A stretch of 64,000 nt of DNA from an uncultured Acetobacteraceae bacterium (GTDB taxonomy: Bacteria; Pseudomonadota; Alphaproteobacteria; Acetobacterales; Acetobacteraceae). The stretch lies in the NCBI GenBank assembly GCA_903924985.1, contig CAIYDT010000089.1:1-64000 (forward strand). The letters are read 5' to 3'. Made by a program: the position numbers and the translations under genes. Below, piece by piece: positions 19,696 to 63,063 of this stretch; the stretch's first letter is position 1; every line of letters starts with the position of its first letter. The notes beneath the pieces were generated by a model that ran no database searches, had not been told where the DNA came from, and worked only from the letters and a program-made list of their open reading frames with translations.

Positions 19696-19960
19696 GGCGT
19701 GAGGCGCTCCTCCAATTGCGAATAATTCGCATGTACCGGCGCATCCTAGACGGGGGCCGGGCAAACGGCAAGATCGGCGGCCAGCAGCGCAAAGGGTGTC
19801 AGATGCGCGTCCGGCGCGATTCCGAATTCGCTTGCCGATTCTCTTGCCATGATGCACAATGTTGTCAGTCAATTGTGGCGCGTTCCTCGACTCCGCTCTG
19901 AATGCGCCATCGGCGACATACAGCCGTACCCGCAATCAATCCTGCCTCGGAGCAACCGTC

Positions 19961-20152
19961 GTGACCATCAAGCGCAAATCCCTGTTCGCAACGCTCGCTT
20001 TCGCCCTGCCGATCGCGGCGCTGGTCGCCTCCCCCGCCATGGCGGCAAAGCCGCATAAGGCGAAGGCCCACACGCATGCCGTGCACAAGGCCAGCGCGCA
20101 TAAGGCCGCGACCAAGCACAAGGTGAAGGCATCGCACGCCGCCGTTCACTAA
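19961..20152 (+). CDS. Small secreted His/Lys/Ala-rich protein
   Basis: 63 residues from a GTG start: a clear signal peptide (LFATLAFALPIAALVASPAMA) followed by a 34-residue mature part made almost only of Lys, His, Ala, Thr and Val. This composition resembles acid-shock (Asr-like) proteins and could buffer protons or bind metals in the periplasm; homology is not established. The upstream 250 bases hold no other gene. It is convergent with the hydrogenase-related operon. Confidence 0.6.
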   Translation: MTIKRKSLFATLAFALPIAALVASPAMAAKPHKAKAHTHAVHKASAHKAATKHKVKASHAAVH

Positions 20153-20161
20153 CGGCCTCGA

Positions 20162-20677
20162 TCAGGGGCTGTTCGCTTCCAGCAAGGCGCGCAGCCCCGA
20201 CAGGATTCGCGACGGCGACGGCGGGCAGCCGCTGATCGTGAGATCGACCGGCACACTGTTGCCCGTGCCGCCGAGCACGGCATAGCTGCCCTTGAACACC
20301 CCTCCATCCACCGCGCAGTCCCCCAGCGCAACGACCCATTTCGGGTCCGGCGTGGCGTCCCAGGCTTGTTCCAGCGCCTGACGCAGGTTTTGCGTCAACG
20401 GTCCGGTCACCAGCAGTACATCCGCGTGCCGGGGGCTGTCGACAAAGCGCAGACCAAAGCGGGATAAATCGTACAGCACCCCGGTCAGCGCCCGCAGCTC
20501 CAGCTCGCAGCCGTTGCAACTGCCGGTGTTGACGTGCCGGATCGCCAGCCCATGCCCCAGCCGCGCCTGGGACGCCGCGTTCAGCCGCTCCGCCAAAGAC
20601 GCGACGGTCGCCGCGTCCACCGGCCCGGGCGGATCGGCTTTGGGGAGTGCGCCGCGGAGCGCGGGGAATTTCACCAT
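20162..20677 (-). CDS. HyfI/NuoB-like Fe-S small subunit of Ehr-type complex
   Basis: 171 residues, homologous to HycG/HyfI and NuoB, the peripheral-arm subunit holding the cluster nearest the active site. All four ligand Cys are present: CNGC (Cys54, Cys57), Cys121 in GDCAVDGG and Cys151 in GCPPSP. It is the last gene of a six-gene operon, 13 bases after the large-subunit stop. Retained Cys suggest the complex still moves electrons even though the partner large subunit has lost its NiFe ligands. Confidence 0.88.
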   Translation of the reverse strand: MVKFPALRGALPKADPPGPVDAATVASLAERLNAASQARLGHGLAIRHVNTGSCNGCELELRALTGVLYDLSRFGLRFVDSPRHADVLLVTGPLTQNLRQALEQAWDATPDPKWVVALGDCAVDGGVFKGSYAVLGGTGNSVPVDLTISGCPPSPSRILSGLRALLEANSP

Positions 20678-20690
20678 CGATGTGGCTCCA

Positions 20691-22052
20691 TCACAAATCC
20701 ATCCCCGACGCCGGCAATCCCAGGGAACAGCAGATCAGCGCCGCATCGCGCGCCTCGGCCCCGACAAGAGCCGCCTCCGCCACCGGCCACAACGCCCACC
20801 CCGGGTCGTTCGGGAACACCGCCGCGATCTGGCCGTGGTCCAGCCGCAGCCAGTGCCAGATGTCGCCGCGAGCGGAGGCCGCTTGTCCCAGCCCCTCCCC
20901 GCTATGCAGGGGCAGGGCGATCGTCAGCAGCCCCTTTGGCAGATCGGCGAGCAAGTCGATGGCCGAGGCAGCGTCCGCGCCGATGGCGTTCAGGCGCCGC
21001 AGGCACCGTCCGGCGGCGTCGCCAGCTCCCTTGACCACACCCAGACCCGTCAGGCGCCCCGCCACCGCATCGCCTTGGAAATGCCCGCGTATAATGGGCA
21101 ACTCCACCAGTAACGCGCCCAGGATTTGTCGCAGCGCCGACAGCCCGTTGGCATCGGCGTCGCCCGACACGCCGCCGGGCACCACGCAATCCATCATCAG
21201 ACGGTGCCCGAACGTCGTCGCCAGGCCGCGCCGCAGATACTCCTGCTGCAAGCCGCAGCGCCCGTGCAGATGGGCCGCCTCGACCAGCCCGGCCAGCGCC
21301 GTAAGATCGTCCAGGTAGGTTCCGATCCGCTCCAGCGCCGCCATCAACGTCCTGAGCGCGGCGGCGCGCGGCGGCGCTTCGACAGAAAGCGCTGCCTCGG
21401 TCGCGGCGGCGAAGGCGATGGAATGTGCGACCGTGGCGTCCCCCGCCAGCCGGGCGGCGAAACGCGCGGCGATGCGGGGGGATTTGGCGCGCATCAGCGT
21501 CAGCGTGCCTTTATGGGTGTAGCCGAGCCGGCTTTCCGCCCGCACGATCTGGGTGCCATCCAGCGTGAGGCGCAGATGGTATGCCTCCCCGATGCCGGGA
21601 CCCAGCGGCCCGACCGGCCACTGCATCAGGGTTTCCCCGGGGGTCTCCTGGAATTCCGGCGGGTCGGCGGTCGGGGGCCGCGGCCCGGGACGCATCGCCA
21701 AAGGTCTGGTGTGCGGCCAGTGGCCGTGATCCAGCCAGGCACGAACCTCACCGCCAGCCGCCGCGTGGCCCCACAGGTCGTGGATCGCCCGCTCATACAA
21801 CGCGGCGCCGTGAAAATGCGGCGACAAAGCCGGGTAAGTCCGATCCTCCACCATGACCGAAACCGGCAGCACGCTGCCCGAGGCCGGATCGTCGAACAGC
21901 GCATGCACCTGCGCCGTATCGGCCCAGGCGGCCAGCAGCGATACCGGCTCACGCATGAGGGCGGACCATTGTACTCCGGTCAGGATGTAGCGCGGCCAGG
22001 GGCGGCACGGCTCCATCGTCGCGGACTGCACGACGGCAAGGGCTTGGCTCAT
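20691..22052 (-). CDS. HyfG-like large subunit lacking NiFe ligands
   Basis: 453 residues in the HycE/HyfG layout: NuoC-like domain (about 1-130, with FHGAALYERAIHDLWG) fused to a NuoD-like domain (about 140-453, with RLGYTHKGTL). In true group-4 hydrogenases the L1 motif is CGxC just after this block; here the matching segment is RLAGDATVAHS with no Cys. The C-terminal DPCxxC (L2) is replaced by CSLGLPASGMDL. No [NiFe] centre can form in the standard way, so this is an energy-converting hydrogenase-related (Ehr-type) subunit with unknown substrate. Starts with ATGA overlap to the HyfF-like gene. Confidence 0.88.
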   Translation of the reverse strand: MSQALAVVQSATMEPCRPWPRYILTGVQWSALMREPVSLLAAWADTAQVHALFDDPASGSVLPVSVMVEDRTYPALSPHFHGAALYERAIHDLWGHAAAGGEVRAWLDHGHWPHTRPLAMRPGPRPPTADPPEFQETPGETLMQWPVGPLGPGIGEAYHLRLTLDGTQIVRAESRLGYTHKGTLTLMRAKSPRIAARFAARLAGDATVAHSIAFAAATEAALSVEAPPRAAALRTLMAALERIGTYLDDLTALAGLVEAAHLHGRCGLQQEYLRRGLATTFGHRLMMDCVVPGGVSGDADANGLSALRQILGALLVELPIIRGHFQGDAVAGRLTGLGVVKGAGDAAGRCLRRLNAIGADAASAIDLLADLPKGLLTIALPLHSGEGLGQAASARGDIWHWLRLDHGQIAAVFPNDPGWALWPVAEAALVGAEARDAALICCSLGLPASGMDL

Positions 22053-23107
22053 CGGGCCACCTCGCGGGCCAGGACGTGCAGCCAGGCCGTAACCGGACCC
22101 GGCAGGGCGAACCCCACAAGCAAGGCCAAGGCCAGCGGGACCCAGGCCGCGGACCAGCGGTCGGTGGCCCCGATGCGCGGCGTCGGCATGCGCGCCACCA
22201 CCGCCCAACCCATCGCTGCCAACGCCGGCAGCACCCCCACCAGAAGCCAGGGGGCCTGCCGCGCCGTCGCGAGGATCACGAGCGCCAGGCCCGGAAACAC
22301 CCCGAACGGCGGCAACCCCGCCAAGCCGGCCGAGGCGAGCAGCCCTGCCAAACCCTGTCCTTTGGCCAATTCCCGCGCCGCCTGGCTCAGAACGAGCAGA
22401 ACCGCCAGCAAAACCCCGGCGAAGATCGCGTCCGGCGACCGTAGCCCAAACGCCAACGCGATAACCCCCGCCTGCCCGAACGCGATCCAGGACAGGCGGT
22501 TTTTGTCCGAGGGCCAAAGCAACACCCCCATTGCACACCCCAACATCCCTGCCAGCCCCACCCCGACCAGCTCGGCTCCCGCGAAGCGCAGCGCCAGGAA
22601 CGGGAGTAAGGGCAGCAATTCCGGCACCGCCACGGCCAGAGCCGCGAGGCCCAGCAGCGCGCACCCCGACGCCAGCGGCGCCGCCGGTAGGATGGAACCG
22701 AACAGCAGCAGACCCAGCCCGGCGCCACAGAGCGGCACGCGGTACCAACCCGCCCTGATGTGCGGTACCAGCGCCACTGCTGCCGCCAGAGCCAACGCGG
22801 CCACCGTCAGGAGAGCATGCCCCGAGAGTCCAGCCAGCAGCATACCCCCCAGCGCAATTTGTCCCGCGATCCGCGTACGACCGAACCGGGGTGCGACAGC
22901 CGCGAGGGCGACGACAATCGCCGCGAACATCCCCAGGCGGTCATGCCGCAGCAGCGGCACGGACTCGGCGTTCTGCCACGGCAAACTCAGCGCCACCATC
23001 AGCGTGGCCACCACAGCACCCAAGTCCACCCAGAACCGGACACGCGCCGGTTGCGGGATGGCCAGTGCCGCGGCCGCGAGGAATGGGATCATCAACAGGA
23101 TCGGCAT
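22049..23107 (-). CDS. HyfF-like antiporter-type membrane subunit, short and divergent
   Basis: About 352 residues and almost wholly membrane-spanning. Position between HyfE- and HyfG-like genes and the LLCGAGLGLLLFGSIL-like and GLPPFGVF blocks point to HyfF/NuoN-type antiporter-like subunits. It is clearly shorter than the roughly 480 residues usual for HyfF, and the normal Lys-containing KxGLAPLHTWLPDAH block is not recognisable. ATG 23107 is used; GTG at 23116 overlaps the previous stop (GTGA) and is an equally good start given the coupling seen in the rest of the operon. Confidence 0.72.
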   Translation of the reverse strand: MPILLMIPFLAAAALAIPQPARVRFWVDLGAVVATLMVALSLPWQNAESVPLLRHDRLGMFAAIVVALAAVAPRFGRTRIAGQIALGGMLLAGLSGHALLTVAALALAAAVALVPHIRAGWYRVPLCGAGLGLLLFGSILPAAPLASGCALLGLAALAVAVPELLPLLPFLALRFAGAELVGVGLAGMLGCAMGVLLWPSDKNRLSWIAFGQAGVIALAFGLRSPDAIFAGVLLAVLLVLSQAARELAKGQGLAGLLASAGLAGLPPFGVFPGLALVILATARQAPWLLVGVLPALAAMGWAVVARMPTPRIGATDRWSAAWVPLALALLVGFALPGPVTAWLHVLAREVAR

Positions 23108-23112
23108 CGCGC

Positions 23113-23616
23113 TCACGCCGCCTGCCGCCGCGAAGCCCAGAGTGCCGCCCAGGCCAGCGCCGGTATCGCCGGCAGGATCGCCGCGATGCGTTCGGGCGCC
23201 GGCAGAGCCAGCCCCGCCAGGGCGATCCCGCTCTGCATTGCCAGCAACCCCAGCACTTGCATACTTCGGTCCCGCGTCGCCGCCGTCACCAGGATCCCCA
23301 GCAGCACCACAGCCAGCGGCACGCTGACCGGTGCCGCCAGCAGTGCCAGAACCGCCCCGGCGCACAAGCTGGTCACGGGACCGATCCGTGGCCGGTGCGG
23401 CTTGCCGGCCGGCAGGCTGTGCAATAGCCAGGGCACACCGATCCCGTTCAGCAGCAGGATCGCGGCAGCCTCGGGATACAGTCCGCGCAAAACGGCCACA
23501 GCCGCCAGCACCAACGCCTGCACCGCCGTCAGTCCAAGAGCGGTGCCAACGCGCCGAGCAGCGAGCACCGCAAAGGCCAAGGCCAGGATCGGGCCGCCGT
23601 CGGGGGCGTTCATCAT
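23113..23616 (-). CDS. HyfE-like membrane subunit
   Basis: 167 residues with about five membrane helices, the size and place of HyfE, which combines a NuoK-like half with extra helices. ATG at 23616 overlaps the HyfC stop (ATGA). The pattern NGIGVPWLLHSL matches the loop that in HyfE reads K-V-L-L-V-P; the Lys is Asn here. Identification rests on operon order and topology more than on strong motifs. Confidence 0.72.
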   Translation of the reverse strand: MMNAPDGGPILALAFAVLAARRVGTALGLTAVQALVLAAVAVLRGLYPEAAAILLLNGIGVPWLLHSLPAGKPHRPRIGPVTSLCAGAVLALLAAPVSVPLAVVLLGILVTAATRDRSMQVLGLLAMQSGIALAGLALPAPERIAAILPAIPALAWAALWASRRQAA

Positions 23617-24515
23617 GTCGTCCCTCCGCCGACCAGGCCCAGCACCACGGCGATCCCGCATAGTAGCAGCGCAAAAACGACCACCGCCGGCACCCGGAGT
23701 GCCGGGGCGAAAACCCGCACACCCGCCAGCACCAGCGCGGCCAGCAGCAGCCGGCCAACCCAGGCCAGCAGCCCAATCCCCCAGGCCGCCGAGCCGATCC
23801 CGGCCGCCGCCATCCCGAACGGCAGTGCCAGCGCGCCGATCAGGTCGCACCAGGCCAGCAGTCGCAGTTGCTCCGCGATTTGCAGCAGCGCCAGGTCTCG
23901 GGCGCTGAATGCGGTGTCCATTCCGGGCCGCACCGCCTCGGTCCATCCCAATAGCGCCAGGGCCGCGACCGCCAGCGCACTCGCCGGGCCAGGCAGCAGC
24001 AGCCCCTCCAGGCGCGCGCCGATAATCTGATCGAGATTGCCGCCGCCGGCCAGCAACGCCAGGGTGAAGACCGCCAGCAGCAGCGCCGGTTCGGCGGCTA
24101 TGGCCAGCCGGCTGGTCTCGGCGGCCGCGACCCCGCCCTCCCCGGTGCCGGCATCCATCGCGGCGAGGACCAGCACGATCCGGCCCAACGCGAACAGCAT
24201 GGCGAGGCTCAGCAGGTCCGCCAGCGGGGCCGAAACCATGCCCAGCGCGAAGGAAGGAATCAGAAACACGCCCACAGCCGCGACAACAACCGACAGCTTC
24301 GGTGCCAGTCGCGTGACGCATGAGGCGTTCTCGGCCCGCACCGTGTGCTTGCGGAACAACCGGGACAGGTCCCGCCAGGGCTGCACGATAGGCGGCCCCT
24401 CCCGCCCGGCCAGACGGTCCGACAACACCCCAACCAGCCCCGCAAGCAGCGGCGCGGCCAGCAGCATCAGAACGATGTGCGCAACTTGCGTGACCAAGGA
24501 CAGCAAAATGCTCAT
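23613..24515 (-). CDS. HyfC/NuoH-like membrane subunit
   Basis: 300 residues, eight or so helices. The strong family block GREGPPIVQPWRDLSRLF near residue 38, the AEPALLL block and the E-x-x-R-P-x-x-D loop (EAVRPGMDTAF) identify the HycD/HyfC/NuoH subunit that links the soluble arm to the membrane arm and forms the quinone-side/E-channel region in complex I. It is the best conserved membrane subunit of this operon. ATGA overlaps on both sides. Confidence 0.87.
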   Translation of the reverse strand: MSILLSLVTQVAHIVLMLLAAPLLAGLVGVLSDRLAGREGPPIVQPWRDLSRLFRKHTVRAENASCVTRLAPKLSVVVAAVGVFLIPSFALGMVSAPLADLLSLAMLFALGRIVLVLAAMDAGTGEGGVAAAETSRLAIAAEPALLLAVFTLALLAGGGNLDQIIGARLEGLLLPGPASALAVAALALLGWTEAVRPGMDTAFSARDLALLQIAEQLRLLAWCDLIGALALPFGMAAAGIGSAAWGIGLLAWVGRLLLAALVLAGVRVFAPALRVPAVVVFALLLCGIAVVLGLVGGGTT

Positions 24516-26317
24516 GCCGCCCCCGCCCAAAGCAGCGCGGCCAGCAGCGCCGCCATCGCGGTCAGCAGCACGGGCAACGCGGCAACCCGCCGCCTCCACC
24601 CTCGCCAGCGCCGCCCAAGGCGGGGGAGCCGGGGCAGAACCGGCACAAACCCAGCGCCGGCACTCTGGGTAAGCGGATCGCCGAACGGCAACCACGCCGG
24701 CGGTGGCGCGAACCCGTCATTCCATGCCGGGCTTAACCGTGGCGGGGCACCGCCCTGGCGACGCAGCAGCCATAGGACCGCGCCGCACGTGGCGACCCCG
24801 AGCAGAACCAGCGGCAAAACCGGGTACCCGGACAGGCCGAGGATGCTGACACGATCCTCCAGCCCAGCCCCCTCCATCTGGCGGATCGCGGGATCGGCAA
24901 GCAGCAGTGCGGCACCGGGGAACAGCCCGATCAGCAATGCGATGCCAGCCAGCACCAGCATCCCAGGGCGCGCCGGCTTCGCGATATCGATCGCCGCCGC
25001 GGAACGAGGCCCTCGCGGGCGCCCCAGAAAAGCAACTCCCAGCAGCCGCACCAGTGCCGCCCCCGACAGCGCCCCCGACAGCGCCAGCGCCGCGGCGACC
25101 AGCGCCAGCCCGGGGAAGCGGGGCGCGGCCAGCAGCGCCTGAAACAGCAACCACAGCGCGGCGAAGCCCGCACCGGCCGGCAGTACCGAGAACCCGTACA
25201 GCGCCGCCCCCATCCCCGCCGCGACCACCGGCATCGAATGGATCAGCCCCCCCAGCAACACAAGTTGCCGGCTGCCCGCCCCGGCGCGCACCGCGCCCGC
25301 CGCCAGTTGCGCCAAGGTGCCGCATACCGCCTGAGACAATGCGAGCAGTAACACCGCCGCCTCGGCCAGCGTGGTCAGGTTGGGCAAGTCCGTCGCGCGC
25401 CCGATCAGCGCCAGGCCGATGCCAATCGCCGCCAGCCCGCTCTGGCGTTCGGTCAGGCCGGCGAGGCAGGAGTCGACCTCGGCCTCCGAGGCCGCGCGCC
25501 ACCCGCCGGTCAGCGCGGTGACGGAGCCCATGACCAGCAACGGCACGCTCCACCACAGCGGTGGCGCCGACCCACAGAGGTCCAGCAGCAGCCGTAACAG
25601 TAAATAGAGCGCCAGCGGCTGCAACGCCCCGGACAGCAACGCCGCCGCTCGGGACGGCGCCTCCCGATGGGCCGGGATCAGCCATAGGTGGAATGGTACC
25701 AGCCCCGCCAGCGCGCCGGGGCCGATCAGCGCCAGGACGTAGACCGCCGTGGCGGGAGCGGGCTGGACGCGCATCGCCTCATAGGTGAAGCCCGACAGGC
25801 CAGCAGCGCCAAGGACCGCGATCCCGGCCAGACCCGCCACCCCCAGCTGGAGCGCGCGCGGCCGGCCCGGTTCGCCGCTTGCCCAAACCGCACCTCCCGC
25901 CAGCGATAGCCCGAGGACCAGCGTCACCCCGTCCGCCGCCAGCATCGCCAGCGTCACACCGGCCAGGCACAGCGTCAGTCCGGCGAGGCTTGATTTCGGC
26001 GCGGTATCCCCGGTTTCCGCCGCGAAAGCGATGCCCGCCGTGCCCGCCAGGAAGGCCGGCAGCAGGAAAAACGCCGCGAGCGGGTCCAGGGTCAGCCGCA
26101 GCGGCAAGCCCGGCAGGCCAAAGGGAAATTGGAGCGAGTCCGGCTCATGGCCGAGCAGCAGGGAGAGCAGCGTCAGCAGGAAACCGAGGCCCCCCAGGCC
26201 AGCCCCGGCGAACCCCATCGCCTGGCAGCTGCCGCGCGCAACGAAACGCGCGACCGCCCCAAGGGTCATCAGGGCGGCGAGTATCCCCACAAGCAGCGGC
26301 AGGACTGGGTCGCTCAC
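24512..26317 (-). CDS. HyfB-like antiporter-type subunit lacking channel Lys/Glu
   Basis: 601 residues, 14 or more helices, homologous to HyfB/HycC and NuoL/M. The hallmark block is GALAGLVPFHLWLIPAH (201-217) followed by SRAAALLSGALQPLALY. In the canonical family these read GAKAG-VPLH-WLP-AH and SGVM-K, so the two channel lysines are Leu203 and Pro234. The helix that normally carries the TM5 Glu (about 131-146) has none. Proton or sodium pumping through this subunit by the usual path looks doubtful. First gene of the operon; its promoter should lie in 26318-26347. Confidence 0.87.
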   Translation of the reverse strand: MSDPVLPLLVGILAALMTLGAVARFVARGSCQAMGFAGAGLGGLGFLLTLLSLLLGHEPDSLQFPFGLPGLPLRLTLDPLAAFFLLPAFLAGTAGIAFAAETGDTAPKSSLAGLTLCLAGVTLAMLAADGVTLVLGLSLAGGAVWASGEPGRPRALQLGVAGLAGIAVLGAAGLSGFTYEAMRVQPAPATAVYVLALIGPGALAGLVPFHLWLIPAHREAPSRAAALLSGALQPLALYLLLRLLLDLCGSAPPLWWSVPLLVMGSVTALTGGWRAASEAEVDSCLAGLTERQSGLAAIGIGLALIGRATDLPNLTTLAEAAVLLLALSQAVCGTLAQLAAGAVRAGAGSRQLVLLGGLIHSMPVVAAGMGAALYGFSVLPAGAGFAALWLLFQALLAAPRFPGLALVAAALALSGALSGAALVRLLGVAFLGRPRGPRSAAAIDIAKPARPGMLVLAGIALLIGLFPGAALLLADPAIRQMEGAGLEDRVSILGLSGYPVLPLVLLGVATCGAVLWLLRRQGGAPPRLSPAWNDGFAPPPAWLPFGDPLTQSAGAGFVPVLPRLPRLGRRWRGWRRRVAALPVLLTAMAALLAALLWAGAA

Positions 26318-26347
26318 GCCGTGACGGTAGCAGACCCGCGGCGGAGT

Positions 26348-26384
26348 CGGCTTGGGGGGATTAAAGTATCCTCACCCCAAGCCG
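26348..26384 (-). terminator. Hairpin between DUF1150 gene and hyfB-like gene
   Basis: Perfect 10-base arms CGGCTTGGGG (26348-26357) and CCCCAAGCCG (26375-26384) with a 17-base loop lie just after the DUF1150 stop on the minus strand and before the hydrogenase-related operon. There is no U-tract after the stem, so it may be a weak or Rho-assisted terminator, or an mRNA end stabiliser. Confidence 0.5.
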
Positions 26385-26394
26385 TGATAGCGGG

Positions 26395-26643
26395 TCAATG
26401 CACCGAGAGCGGGTGCATCTCCTGTTGGAGGATCGCCGCCATCGCGACGTCGCGGTCACCGGCCATCGCCATCGGGGTGCCGTCGGCGGCGTGGATAGCG
26501 AAGCCGTGTTGGCCGTTCACCGTCACCGGCTTCACGTAGGCGATCTGCGACACGCCGAGCTGCGCGAGCTGTTCGGCGGACAGATGCCGGATATCGAAAG
26601 AGGCGACCATCGGTGCCTCTTGGATGCTGTTTTCGTTGGTCAT
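26395..26643 (-). CDS. DUF1150 family protein
   Basis: 82 residues. The block LSAEQLAQLGVSQIAYVKPV and the end HAADGTPMAMAGDRDVA are typical of DUF1150, small alphaproteobacterial proteins usually encoded beside Hsp20 chaperones. It follows the Hsp20 gene with a 31-base gap, so a shared heat-shock transcript is likely. Biochemical role unknown. ATG at 26643 is preceded by AGGAGAG. Confidence 0.85.
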   Translation of the reverse strand: MTNENSIQEAPMVASFDIRHLSAEQLAQLGVSQIAYVKPVTVNGQHGFAIHAADGTPMAMAGDRDVAMAAILQQEMHPLSVH

Positions 26644-38549: not shown

Positions 38550-39026
<477 letters not shown>

Positions 39027-39051
39027 GAACCCGACGACAGGGAGAACGAAC

Positions 39052-41430
39052 ATGGCCTTCGAAGGCATCGGTGCATCCGTTCGCCGCAAGGAAGATCTGC
39101 GTTTCCTCAGCGGCAACGGCAATTATACCGACGACATCAACCGTCCCGGGCAGTTGTACGCGGTCATGCGCCGCTCCGACCGGCCGCACGCAACGATTGG
39201 CGGCATCGACACGGCGGCGGCCAGCAAGGCCCCCGGTGTCGTGGCCATCTTTACCGGCGCCGACATGGCGAAGGAAGAGATCGGCGGCCTGCCCTGCGGC
39301 TGGCAGATTCACAACAAGGACGGCTCCCCGATGGCGGAGCCGCCGCATCCGGTGATGGCGATCGGCAAGGTGCGCCATGTCGGCGACCCCGTCGCGGTGG
39401 TGATCGCCGAGACCAAGCAGCAGGCGCGCGACGCGGCGGAACTGATCGCGATCGACTACCAGGACCTGCCGTCGGTGTCGTCGACCACGGATGCCATCGC
39501 CCCCGGCGCACCGGAAGTGCATGACGGCGTGGCGGGCAACATCTGCTACGACTGGCATATCGGCGACAAAGCGATAGTCGATGCCGCCTTCTCCGGCGCG
39601 GCGCATGTCGTGAAGCTGGATCTGGTGAACAACCGGCTGGTGCCGAACGCGATGGAGCCTCGGGCCGCCATCGGCGAATGGGACACCTCGTCCGGCGATT
39701 ACACCCTGTACACCACCAGCCAGAACCCGCATGTGATTCGGCTGCTGATGGGCGCCTTCGTGCTGCATATTCCTGAAAATAAGCTGCGCGTGGTTGCCCC
39801 GGATGTCGGCGGCGGGTTTGGGTCGAAGATCTACCATTACGCGGAAGAGGCGATCGTCACCTGGGCGTCGGCGAAAGTGCGGCGTCCGGTGAAATGGACC
39901 GCCGACCGCACCGAAAGCTTCATGTCCGATGCGCATGGGCGCGACCACGTGTCCACCGCCGAGATGGCTGTCGATAAGGACGGCAAATTCCTGGGGCTGC
40001 GGATTCTGACGCTGGCGAACATGGGCGCCTATCTGTCCACCTTCGCGCCGTGCGTGCCGACCTATCTGTACGCCACGCTGCTGGCTGGCGTGTACACAAC
40101 GCCTGTCATCTACTGCAACGTCAAGGCGGTGTTCACCAACACCGTGCCGGTGGACGCCTATCGCGGCGCCGGCCGGCCGGAGGCGACCTTCCTGCTGGAA
40201 CGCCTGGTGGACTGCATCGCGCAGGATATCGGCATCGACCGGGTGGAGCTGCGTCGCAAGAACTTCATCCCCGCGGATGCCTTCCCCTACCAGACCCCGG
40301 TGGCGCTGGCGTACGACAGCGGCGACTACCAGACCACGTTGAGGGTCGCCCTAAAGAACGCCGACTGGGACGGTTTCGAAGCCCGTCGCGCCGAGGCCAA
40401 GAAGCGCGGCAAGCTGCGCGGCATCGGCATTTCGACTTATTTGGAGGCTTGCGGCATCGCCCCCTCGGCGGTCGTCGGCTCCCTGGGTGCGCGCGCCGGC
40501 TTGTACGAGGTGGCCAACATCCGGGTGCATCCGACCGGTAGCGTGACGGTGTTCACCGGCACCCACAGCCACGGGCAAGGGCATGAAACCACCCTGGCGC
40601 AGCTCGTCTGCGATCAGCTCGGCGTGCCCCTGTCGCAGGTCGATGTGGTGCACGGCGATACCGCCAAAATCCCCTTCGGCATGGGCACCTACGGCAGCCG
40701 TTCTTTGGCGGTCGGCGGATCGGCCATGGTCAAGGCGATGGACAAGATCATCGCCAAGGGGAAGAAAATCGCCGCCCACCTGATGGAGGCCTCGGTCGAG
40801 GACATCGAATTCGCCGACAACACTTTCAAGGTGGCCGGCACGGACAAGACCAGGTCCCTGACGGATATCTCGTTGGCCGCTTACGTGCCGCACAACTACC
40901 CGATCGACGAGATCGAGCCGGGCCTGGACGAAACGGCATTCTACGATCCGAAGAACTTTACCTTCCCGGGCGGCTGCCACATCGCGGAAATCGAGATCGA
41001 CCCGGAGACCGGCGTCACCGAGGTGATCGCGTTCACCGCCGTGGACGACGTCGGCCGGGTGGTGAACCCGATGATCGTGGAGGGCCAGATACAGGGTGGC
41101 GTCGCCCAGGGCATCGGGCAGGCGCTGCTGGAATCGGCGATCTACGACAAGTCGGGCCAGCTTCTGAGCGGCTCCATGATGGACTACACCATGCCGCGGG
41201 CGGACAACCTGCCCAACTTCAACGTGTCCACCGAGAACACCATGTGCACCCACAACCCCCTGGGGTCGAAGGGCTGCGGCGAGGTGGGCGCCATCGGCTC
41301 CCCGCCCGCGATCATGAACGCGGTGGTGGATGCGCTGAAGGACTACGGGGTGCGGCATCTGGATATGCCCGCGACCGGGCCGAAGCTGTGGTCGATCATC
41401 CAGGGCGGCCTGAAAATGGCGGCGGAATAA
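39052..41430 (+). CDS. CoxL-like molybdopterin subunit, form II
   Basis: 792 residues, the molybdopterin cytosine dinucleotide-binding catalytic subunit. The active-site loop is [10 protein letters not shown] (form II) and not the AYxCSFR of proven CO dehydrogenases, so CO oxidation is not secure; another aldehyde or heterocycle may be the substrate. Other blocks: [25 protein letters not shown] and [16 protein letters not shown] with the catalytic Glu. Follows coxS by 25 bases. Confidence 0.9.
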
Positions 41431-41443
41431 AGGAGTCGGAACG

Positions 41444-42235
41444 ATGTACGATTTTACCTATTCGAAACCCGCCAGCCTCGCCGATGCGGTGGCCGCGCTG
41501 TCCAAAGACGACGAAGCCAAGGCGTTGGCCGGGGGTATGACCTATATCCCGGTGCTGAAGCAGCGGCTGGCGAAGCCATCCTCCGTTGTGGACCTCTCGG
41601 GCCTCGGCTTGTCGGGGATCACGGTGACCGGCAGCACCGTCACCATCGGCGCCATGACCACGCACGACACAGTGGCTCGAAATGCCGACGTGAAGAAGGC
41701 TATCCCGGCGCTGGCGGCGTTGGCCGGCGGCATCGGCGATGAGGCGGTGCGCCATCGCGGCACCATCGGCGGGTCTTTGGCCAACAATGATCCGGCAGCG
41801 TGCTACCCCTCGGTCGTGCTGGCGTTGGGTGCGACGATTACGACCAATAAGCGGTCCATCGCGGCGGACGACTATTTTCAAGGCATGTTCACCACTGCGC
41901 TGGAGCAGGGCGAACTCATCACATCGGTCACGTTCCCCATTCCGCAGCGCGCCGGTTACGAAAAATTCAAGAACCCGGCATCGCGCTATGCCATCGTCGG
42001 CGTGTTCGTCGCCAGGTTCCCGACCGGCGCCCGCGTGGGCGTGACCGGCGCCAGCCAGAGCGGCGTGTTCCGGCATGAGGGGATGGAGAAAGCCCTGTCC
42101 GCCAACTTCTCCCCCGACGCAACAGTGGGAGTCACCACCCCGGCCGACAACATGAATGGCGACATCCACGCCAGCGCCGAGTACCGCGCGCATCTGGTGG
42201 GCGTCATCACCAAGCGGGCTGTCGCGAAGGCGTAA
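41444..42235 (+). CDS. CoxM-like FAD subunit
   Basis: 263 residues of the FAD-binding PCMH fold: LAGGMTYIPVLKQRL near residue 32, TIGAMTTHDTVA, and IGDEAVRHRGTIGGSLANNDPAACYP. Carries electrons from the iron-sulfur subunit to the acceptor. 13 bases after coxL, AGGAG before the ATG. No coxD/E/F/G accessory genes follow. Confidence 0.92.
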   Translation: MYDFTYSKPASLADAVAALSKDDEAKALAGGMTYIPVLKQRLAKPSSVVDLSGLGLSGITVTGSTVTIGAMTTHDTVARNADVKKAIPALAALAGGIGDEAVRHRGTIGGSLANNDPAACYPSVVLALGATITTNKRSIAADDYFQGMFTTALEQGELITSVTFPIPQRAGYEKFKNPASRYAIVGVFVARFPTGARVGVTGASQSGVFRHEGMEKALSANFSPDATVGVTTPADNMNGDIHASAEYRAHLVGVITKRAVAKA

Positions 42236-62130: not shown

Positions 62131-62185
62131 TTGACGCGGGACAGAGAGTGTTCCATATGGACTTCAATGGAGGTTCATATGGAAC
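62131..62185 (+). promoter_or_regulatory. Promoter and paired palindromic operator of the Xre-RES operon
   Basis: TTGACG at 62131-62136 and a CATATG/TATGGA -10 region near 62154-62161 form a promoter. Two CATATGGA-centred palindromes, at 62150-62161 (GTTCCATATGGA) and 62174-62185 (TTCATATGGAAC), are inverted copies 24 bases apart; the second covers the antitoxin start codon. This fits autorepression by the antitoxin. Confidence 0.7.
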
Positions 62186-62604
62186 ATCAATTCGCCGAAC
62201 CCAAGCCTGTTGGCGGCGCCCTGCGGGACACCCAGATGCCGATCTGGGGGCTGCAAAGCGCGATCTCCAAGGGCCTGTCCCGCGAAGTCCTGCTGGATGT
62301 CGCGCACGAGATCTGGATCGACCCGGTTGAAGCCAACAAGCTCGTGCACGCCATTGTGCCAAAATCCAGCCTCAGCCGGCGTGGTACGCTGACCCCGGCC
62401 CAAGGCGAACAGACCGAACGACTGCACCGTCTGTTCCAGTATGCGTGCCGGGTGTTCGGCGACGATGGTGATGCGCGCAAGTTCATGCAGCGGCCGCATC
62501 CCGAACTCGAAGGCCGCCGCCCGGTCGACGCCGCCTTGTTTGAACTCGGTGGGCGGATGGTCGAAAGCGTGCTGGATGCGCTGTATTACGGACTGCCGGT
62601 TTAA
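62179..62604 (+). CDS. Xre-type antitoxin (MbcA/ParS domain) of RES system
   Basis: 141 residues. The N-terminal part (about 20-70, LQSAISKGLSREVLLDVA) is the divergent helix-turn-helix and the C-terminal part (FGDDGDARKFMQRPHPELEG, then GGRMVESVLDALYYGLPV) is the toxin-binding domain seen in MbcA and Xre antitoxins. GGAGG lies just before the ATG at 62179. Directly abuts the RES toxin gene with no gap. Confidence 0.9.
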   Translation: MEHQFAEPKPVGGALRDTQMPIWGLQSAISKGLSREVLLDVAHEIWIDPVEANKLVHAIVPKSSLSRRGTLTPAQGEQTERLHRLFQYACRVFGDDGDARKFMQRPHPELEGRRPVDAALFELGGRMVESVLDALYYGLPV

Positions 62605-63063
62605 GTGCGCCTGTGGCGGATCGGGAACGCCCTGTTCCCGGTCTGGAGCGCGGAGGGCGCCCGTCTGAAGGGTGGACGCTGGAACCAGCCAGGAACACCG
62701 GCGATCTATGCCGCGACATCGTTCGCGTCGGCCGCGCTGGAGGCTTTGGTGCATGCCAATACCGGCCGGCTGCCGCGCGACGCGCGGTATGTCACAATCG
62801 ATATTCCGGATAACGCACCCAGCGGGCGCCTGACGGCCGAGGACGTCGCCGGCTGGAACGAGATACCAGCGCGCGCCTCCCGCGTCGCGGGAGACGCCTG
62901 GATCAGGACGCGGTCGGGGCTGGTGCTGATGGTGCCTTCCGCGGTGACGCTGGGCCTGGACGACAACGCGATGATCAACCCGCTGCACCCGGACTACGCC
63001 CGGATCGTAGTCAGCGAGGAAACGCCCGTGCGATGGGACGAGCGGCTGATCGTCAGCTGGTAA
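62605..63063 (+). CDS. RES domain toxin
   Basis: 152 residues. Starts MRLWRIGN with GTG right after the antitoxin stop. RES motif features: the early Arg (LWRI, KGGRWNQPG), Glu in ALEALVH and Ser in VPSAV. RES toxins degrade or ADP-ribosylate from NAD+, halting growth. Overlaps the convergent SDR gene end by 11 bases. Confidence 0.92.
   Translation: MRLWRIGNALFPVWSAEGARLKGGRWNQPGTPAIYAATSFASAALEALVHANTGRLPRDARYVTIDIPDNAPSGRLTAEDVAGWNEIPARASRVAGDAWIRTRSGLVLMVPSAVTLGLDDNAMINPLHPDYARIVVSEETPVRWDERLIVSW

Follow-up and report, generated by a model that had tools for sequence, protein, structure and literature searches.

The 64,000-nucleotide stretch of an uncultured Acetobacteraceae bacterium analysed here (the window, located on contig C89 of a 5.59-Mb draft genome that is 98.69% complete with 7.51% contamination) carries at positions 20162-26317, on the minus strand, six tightly packed genes encoding homologues of HyfB, C, E, F, G and I. 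As judged from sequence comparison, this operon is a third, strongly diverged paralogue in the branch of the complex I superfamily that holds the Hyq and the energy-converting hydrogenase-related (Ehr) complexes, and its product should be neither a nickel-iron ([NiFe]) hydrogenase nor a proton pump of the complex I type. Substitution patterns indicate that the operon is under purifying selection, strongest on the small subunit HyfI. Its product may be best explained, with a probability that we put at roughly 45%, as a non-pumping, membrane-anchored redox module with one cluster, probably linked to quinone.

Subunits and comparison set

The six subunits are encoded as follows.

24512..26317, minus strand: HyfB/HyqB-like subunit (NuoL/M family), 601 amino acids, start codon GTG; has lost the channel residues, with the antiporter fold predicted to persist
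23613..24515, minus strand: HyfC/HyqC-like subunit (NuoH family), 300 amino acids; loop GPPIVQPWRDL..K kept, Glu-rich loop (LEL and HEAM positions) deleted
23113..23616, minus strand: HyfE/HyqE-like subunit, 167 amino acids (220 in both full-size copies of the genome)
22049..23107, minus strand: HyfF/HyqF-like subunit, 352 amino acids (480 and 488 in the full-size copies)
20691..22052, minus strand: HyfG/HyqG-like large subunit, 453 amino acids, without [NiFe] ligands
20162..20677, minus strand: HyfI/HyqI-like small subunit (NuoB family), 171 amino acids, Cys54, 57, 121 and 151 kept

The genes, which were called by a simple codon-usage script in draft genomes, overlap by 4 bases at the B/C, C/E and F/G junctions. 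The best family match of the B subunit is hydrogenase 4 subunit B (NCBIfam, E 1.9e-69, under its curated cut-off) and that of the C subunit is NADHdh (Pfam, 1.9e-14), while F matches hydrogenase 4 subunit F weakly (NCBIfam, 1.2e-6, under the cut-off, with no Pfam match). The best PDB matches of G and I are formate hydrogenlyase subunit 5, HycE (1.7e-17), and subunit 7 (7.7e-35), respectively. The E subunit has no match in Pfam or NCBIfam and was assigned from its position and its similarity to HyqE.

The same genome contains two further operons of the Hyq type, both full-size and both scored as channel-intact:

L043:6967-14249 (contig C160): Hyq operon with B 664, C 316, E 220, F 480, G 496 and I 167 amino acids; an XRE-like gene lies directly upstream
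About L042:10720-17863 (contig C132): Hyq operon with B 669, C 316, E 220, F 488 and G 510 amino acids; I was found by family search and tblastn

For comparison, 108 non-Nuo loci, the window included, were picked from ranked matches and form a non-random sample; proteins truncated at the end of a contig or missed by the gene caller were dropped, leaving 92 rows for B, 95 for C, 89 for F and 107 for G. Among 33 genomes of the genus, its own included, seven carry the reduced form found in the window (a match over nearly the whole protein), 19 carry a longer sister form (genus-long below) and seven carry neither, the forms having been typed manually from the match table. In the large-subunit tree, which was made by a quick method without bootstrap, the reduced form makes up one clade (7 rows, SH-aLRT 100) beside the longer form, and both together make up a 26-row clade (SH-aLRT 98) apart from a 25-row Hyq clade (100).

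Loss of the metal site and of the proton path

The following features of the large subunit bear on its catalytic site.

21420..21452, minus strand: RLAGDATVAHS (residues 201-211 of G), standing where the first CxxC would be; the family keeps the Asp and Thr of GDxT
20694..20729, minus strand: C-terminus CSLGLPASGMDL, position of DPCxxC, at the end of the large subunit
21018..21029, minus strand: site of the missing GRASGxxFDxRR...PxYxxY loop, at about G residues 343/344

RLAGDATVAHS aligns exactly with RVCGICGFAHS of HycE (phmmer). DPCxxC is taken by us to lie at the C-terminus of HycE and HyfG; the printed alignment did not reach the very end of HycE. A pair of the form C..C occurs nowhere in the G protein of the window, and the three pairs seen among 107 aligned large subunits (L048, L128 and L157; residues 273-293) are off the ligand positions and were rejected as hidden CxxC motifs. 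The Asp of GDxT, a motif that stands at the site of the first CxxC and may line a ligand pocket, is present in 25/25 Hyq, 18/19 genus-long and 7/7 reduced proteins. Three conserved Cys of HyqG, taken as 259/491/497 of the Rhizobium protein and C251/C483/C489 of the C160 copy, are found at each position in all 25 Hyq proteins and in none of the seven reduced or 19 genus-long ones; both the C160 and the C132 copies retain the HyqG C-terminus with its two Cys. The Cys of HGRCGLQQE in the window copy was considered as an equivalent of HyqG Cys258, but according to the site-by-site count that Cys is not kept and the one in HGRCGLQQE occupies a different position. The active-site loop GRASGRDFDARR...PYxxY, which is found in Hyq and recognisable in aligned NuoD as RASGVPWDLRR, is gone in six of the seven reduced proteins, while in L044 residues are present there but the motif is not. 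The genus-long copy L145 still has this loop, yet scores 0 of 8 for the HyfB channel residues described below. The AlphaFold2 model of HyfG (pLDDT 88.6) matches HycE best by E-value (TMq 0.86) and E. coli NuoCD with TMq 0.87.

The membrane subunits were scored at residues of the proton path and near the quinone site, whose roles (including that of the HyfC loop, via NuoH) we assign on the basis of what is generally known about complex I. In HyfB, eight channel positions were scored (two Glu, four Lys and two His); all are lost in 7/7 reduced and 16/16 genus-long proteins, and each is kept in 23/23 Hyq. With Arg accepted in place of Lys, HyfF keeps 0-2 of 6 channel residues in the 23 genus proteins (one in the window copy), and HyfC likewise keeps 0-2 of 6 (two in the window copy); in both subunits every position is kept in 24/24 Hyq. 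A count of Asp, Glu and Lys in the helix interiors of HyfB, which depends less on the alignment, gives means of 7.1 for Hyq (23 proteins), 5.2 for 'mid' (38), 2.6 for genus-long (16), 2.1 for reduced (seven) and 4.0 for 'far' proteins (eight), and is not clean in that the 'far' proteins score 0 of 8 channel residues but average 4.0. The antiporter fold of HyfB is nevertheless predicted to be kept despite this loss, since its AlphaFold2 model (pLDDT 82.7) has HycC as its best PDB match by E-value (TMq 0.77). The HyfC loop near the quinone site is kept in part: the equivalent of Lys54 is present in 7/7 reduced and 16/16 genus-long proteins, Pro44 in 6/7 and 12/16, and Asp47 in 4/7 and 12/16.

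When loci with 25% or fewer of these residues are called pump-dead and those with 75% or more alive, the 102 scored loci divide into 39 dead, 59 alive and 4 mixed. Two changes of this label are needed on the unrooted large-subunit tree after six rows lacking a channel call were dropped and the four mixed rows left unlabelled. Because the most reduced of the 'far' rows sit on long branches, the claim is limited to at least two losses. Three loci (L051, L053 and L112) have four-gene versions that lack E and F as genes of their own (B 424-454, C 446-498, G 418-440 and I 167-174 amino acids); a fused remnant may be hidden in the long C.

The small subunit has kept its ligands. Cys54, 57, 121 and 151 of HyfI are invariant in 25/25 aligned HyfI/HyqI proteins, and a broader alignment of 89 departs from this through gaps at two positions, in one genus-long and one reduced row, and through one 'far' row at three positions, so that, on the alignment, the ligand set for an N2-type [4Fe-4S] cluster is retained. 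It is the combination of absent [NiFe] ligands, lost channel residues, lost HyqG Cys and missing loop that speaks against both hydrogenase and pump. The initial annotation of this stretch, made from its letters alone, had described a tight six-gene HyfB, C, E, F, G, I-like operon whose large subunit has lost both CxxC motifs and whose small subunit keeps all four cluster Cys, and had concluded that it is not a [NiFe] hydrogenase; the gene calls, family and PDB matches and alignments bear out all of this. Beyond what it described are the two full-size paralogous operons elsewhere in the genome and the shortening and loss of charge of the window copy.

Selection, promoter and neighbouring genes

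All six subunits align without in-frame stops with those of six out of six orthologues, E and F being in one frame in L128. Omega (NG86) between the window and six orthologues is 0.20-0.32 for B, 0.33-0.49 for C, 0.27-0.46 for F and 0.20-0.29 for G, and with five orthologues it is 0.32-0.53 for E and 0.07-0.18 for I, the lowest of all; these values are rough, as dS reaches 0.70-1.48. The full-size C160 operon compared with four congeners gives 0.14-0.20 for B, 0.13-0.17 for C, 0.06-0.10 for E, 0.12-0.15 for F and 0.12-0.16 for G, and with three congeners 0.06-0.08 for I. Constraint in the window copy is thus relaxed about fivefold in E, nearly threefold in C and F and about twofold in B, G and I, with I still under the strongest constraint. 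Of two additional Hyq pairs for which omega was calculated, L158/L159 gives 0.27 for B and 0.43 for I; the latter value goes against the pattern and is perhaps due to a gene-call error.

A conserved element precedes the operon.

26318..26350, minus strand: promoter-like element CCGACTCCGnCn5TCTGCTAn3T, whose end directly precedes the GTG start of HyfB

Upstream of HyfB, the alignment of the seven orthologues has 18 invariant columns among the 33 from -33 to -1 and none among the 67 from -100 to -34, and the element is present at a fixed spacing in all seven reduced-form copies. It is non-coding, with in-frame stops in 4/7. Across the genome the core matches perfectly once, never with one or two mismatches and 10 times with three; a reversed control pattern gives 13 sites. 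The element is perhaps the promoter of a leaderless mRNA, such a transcript being possible because it lies so close to the GTG. A leader hairpin at 26318-26400 (-37.8 kcal/mol, z -4.0) did not appear in the folds of six orthologues and was not used. On the absence of stops, the omega values and this element, the reading as a pseudogene was rejected.

Directly upstream of the B gene is a DUF1150 gene and no regulator. Downstream, at 19859-20152 and convergent with the operon end, is a small His/Lys/Ala-rich protein with a signal-like start, which by eye resembles acid-shock proteins. As the initial annotation had stated, no HyfA/HyfH, formate dehydrogenase or Hyp gene is nearby, and inspection by eye of the genes called in the window agrees with this. 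Its proposed search for hyp genes and other hydrogenases gave no match to HypD, the one Hyp gene searched for, in the whole draft genome, and the matches to PF00374 are limited to the three large subunits of the Hyq type. HypD was found in 0/7 reduced-form genomes and in 9/33 across the genus, and nifH over the cut-off in 0/7 and 5/33. On contig C147 (L161:5964-10737) there is, by eye, a cluster of the soluble NAD-linked formate dehydrogenase type (945, 490 and 156 amino acids), which nothing ties to the operon. Searches for NuoB, NuoD and NuoF gave only the copies of the Hyq type and a formate-dehydrogenase-type protein; the apparent absence of complex I was not used in support of a replacement role, and it may be an assembly gap because NuoD-like matches occur in 28 of the 33 genus genomes (three loci inspected).

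No constant co-oriented partner gene was found in the stretches fetched around the operon copies, and TRAP transporter and hopanoid neighbours were rejected as operon partners, being on the opposite strand. The hopanoid-type genes (squalene-synthase-like, HpnB-like and HpnA-like, by eye) lie downstream of 17 of the 19 genus-long copies (L045, L131-L142 and L144-L147). An aldo-keto reductase gene is found upstream of the first subunit in 17 loci, on the same strand and within 304 bases in nine (L140, L135, L139, L056, L080, L059, L067, L052 and L111), at about 2.1-2.3 kb in six, at 916 bases in one and on the other strand in one; it is not near the window copy and is a lead only. Elsewhere in the window, coxS-coxL-coxM-like genes were recognised by eye at 38550-42235, the large subunit carrying AYRGAGR, which we take to be the motif of form II rather than form I CO dehydrogenase, and two adjacent small genes at 62167-63063 resemble, by eye, an Xre-RES toxin-antitoxin pair.

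Related complexes and possible roles

The nearest studied relative is Hyq, for which the consulted parts of the cited reports give hyqRBCEFGI of Azorhizobium caulinodans as the published 'endo-hydrogenase' case, name Rhizobium leguminosarum among the hyq carriers and describe HyqG of eight genera as lacking both CxxC motifs and having three conserved Cys (258/491/497 in Azorhizobium) (PMC3357923). Deletion of hyq, a member of the nif regulon in Azorhizobium, slowed diazotrophic growth and changed H2 evolution, up at 20 uM O2 and down at <1 uM O2, and the complex was inferred to be an H2:quinone oxidoreductase with an undetermined site (PMC2650096, PMC3357923). The window copy has the same six subunits in the same order, without HyfA, HyfD or HyfH, with no CxxC in G and with the four Cys in I. 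The C160 operon of the same genome is close to that of Rhizobium johnstonii 3841 pRL11 (identity 62% for B and G, 71-72% for C and I and 74% for E and F), the latter BCEFGI operon being preceded by a helix-turn-helix gene, whereas G and I of the window are 32% and 65% identical to Rhizobium Hyq. The window copy also differs in lacking the three HyqG Cys, the scored channel residues, the large-subunit loop and an upstream regulator; among 25 Hyq loci, 17 have an XRE-like gene adjoining B, and of the remaining eight there are two whose fetched stretch does not include B. Unlike the nitrogenase-linked hyq of Azorhizobium, it occurs in genomes without nifH over the cut-off (0/7).

Ehr complexes, for instance those of Geobacter and Nitrospira, are likewise group 4-like sets without [NiFe] ligands; the parts of the literature consulted describe their function as unknown, with suspected charge translocation and sometimes a link to formate (PMC10284858, PMC6349859, PMC7894505). 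Their antiporter-like subunits are proposed, in the consulted portion of PMC6349859, to translocate ions, while the scored residues are lost in the window copy. The resemblance to hydrogenase-4 and formate hydrogenlyase is one of fold, with G and B matching HycE and HycC best by E-value; [NiFe] ligands and a ferredoxin subunit are missing, HypD is not in the genome, and the large subunit lacks the two CxxC pairs of a group 4 [NiFe] hydrogenase. Respiratory complex I has 14 subunits, an NADH module among them, rather than six, and no NuoE/F/G/I-like gene is present in the operon. The initial annotation had assigned the operon to the Ehr complexes, with no proven substrate. The part on group 4-like subunits without [NiFe] ligands stands, but it is incomplete, because the Hyq mutants, with the same BCEFGI set and no CxxC, have published H2 phenotypes, so that it should rather read that H2-linked phenotypes are reported for the nearest studied relative, at an unknown site. 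The label 'energy-converting' fails for the window copy, as the scored proton-channel residues are gone in the whole genus clade. A membrane complex with cluster ligands and an unknown partner agrees with the final proposal of that annotation, in which electron transfer itself remains inferred.

In the reading that we prefer, that of a non-pumping one-cluster redox module, HyfG and HyfI would dock a soluble partner, and the single cluster would carry electrons between it and a ligand (most likely quinone) where HyfI, HyfG and HyfC meet; HyfB, C, E and F would be a membrane anchor instead of a pump. A wider statement is put forward more tentatively, namely that a complex I relative with both pump and metal site dead is under selection as an uncoupled quinone-side one-cluster module, with the loss having happened at least twice in Acetobacteraceae and some lineages having come down to four genes (B, C, G and I). 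Several observations weigh against this interpretation. A working quinone pocket is putative, because quinone ligands of the NuoD type cannot be made out and the GRASG..FD.RR loop has gone. Parts of the HyfC loop are poorly kept (its Gln in 4/16 genus-long and its first Gly in 3/7 reduced proteins). The analysis found neither an electron donor nor a ferredoxin subunit, and no partner gene that is constantly co-oriented with the operon. Omega is rough, seven of the 33 genomes in the genus lack the paralogue, and the promoter-like element stands out in the reduced form only, the genus-long copies scored reaching 14-16 of 19 at best and most of them 8-12. The relaxed membrane subunits are equally well compatible with a purely structural role.

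Such a role belongs to the main rival, somewhat unlikely in our judgement, in which the complex is a structural or sensory pseudo-enzyme without turnover, kept because it helps another respiratory complex (a full Hyq, for instance) to assemble or stay stable, or because it senses redox state through the HyfI cluster. Precedent exists in the same bacterial family: the consulted part of one paper reports that Acetobacteraceae keep 'deranged' respiratory proteins, a bc1 without ligands and a COX1-like protein without metal ligands, with possible structural roles (PMC10715153). These too are respiratory proteins retained after loss of cofactor ligands, although they belong to other complexes, and the consulted main text of that report does not contain the terms hyf, ehr, energy-converting or antiporter. 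The channel residues were lost while the predicted fold stayed and omega is below 1, as this rival would have it, but conservation is highest in HyfI and its cluster Cys, which suggests redox use, and seven draft genomes with the paralogue (G210, G212, G214, G215, G219, G226 and G228) have no full Hyq among the matches listed, so that Hyq is not a fixed companion. That a duplicated Hyq operon under relaxed selection is simply on its way out, without present function, would agree with shortened subunits, with membrane-subunit omega above that of Hyq, with the seven genus genomes that lack it and with still smaller relatives elsewhere in the family; it is an improbable explanation, given six stop-free orthologues at dS of about 1, omega of 0.07-0.53 (0.07-0.18 in HyfI) and the invariant promoter-like element at fixed spacing in 7/7.

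Ion pumping coupled to electron transfer, where the substrate might be H2 in line with the claim made for Azorhizobium Hyq, has in its favour the six-subunit set and the absence of CxxC, both as in Hyq, whose deletion alters H2 evolution and diazotrophic growth in the reports as consulted (PMC2650096, PMC3357923). It is nevertheless very doubtful in view of 0/8 HyfB channel residues in 23/23 proteins of the genus clade, the deleted Glu-rich loop of HyfC, the three lost HyqG Cys and the seven reduced-form genomes without HypD and without nifH over the cut-off. Least probable of all, and hardly to be expected, is a hydrophobic conduit in which the charge-poor antiporter scaffold would handle a neutral lipid-like molecule, such as quinone or a hopanoid precursor. 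Hopanoid-type genes (by eye) do adjoin 17/19 genus-long and 10/47 'mid' copies, but on the opposite strand, no reduced copy, the window included, has one in the fetched stretches, and the proteins themselves give no pointer to transport.

The family itself has already been described as the Hyq gene set, of which the window copy is a shrunken paralogue; a Hyq or Ehr complex stripped of its pump was described in no title or abstract opening listed by the searches of open-access literature. Hyq, its nearest studied kin, is a reported H2-linked complex without a known H2 site. The accepted view of complex I and related complexes is that of ion pumps driven by redox reactions, and a family under selection that has the pump fold minus the channel residues separates redox chemistry and docking from pumping. 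It would be a natural negative control for coupling models, asking what such a membrane complex does when hydrogen handling and pumping of the known kind are probably both lost, and it would extend the 'deranged respiratory enzyme' pattern of Acetobacteraceae to a relative of complex I.

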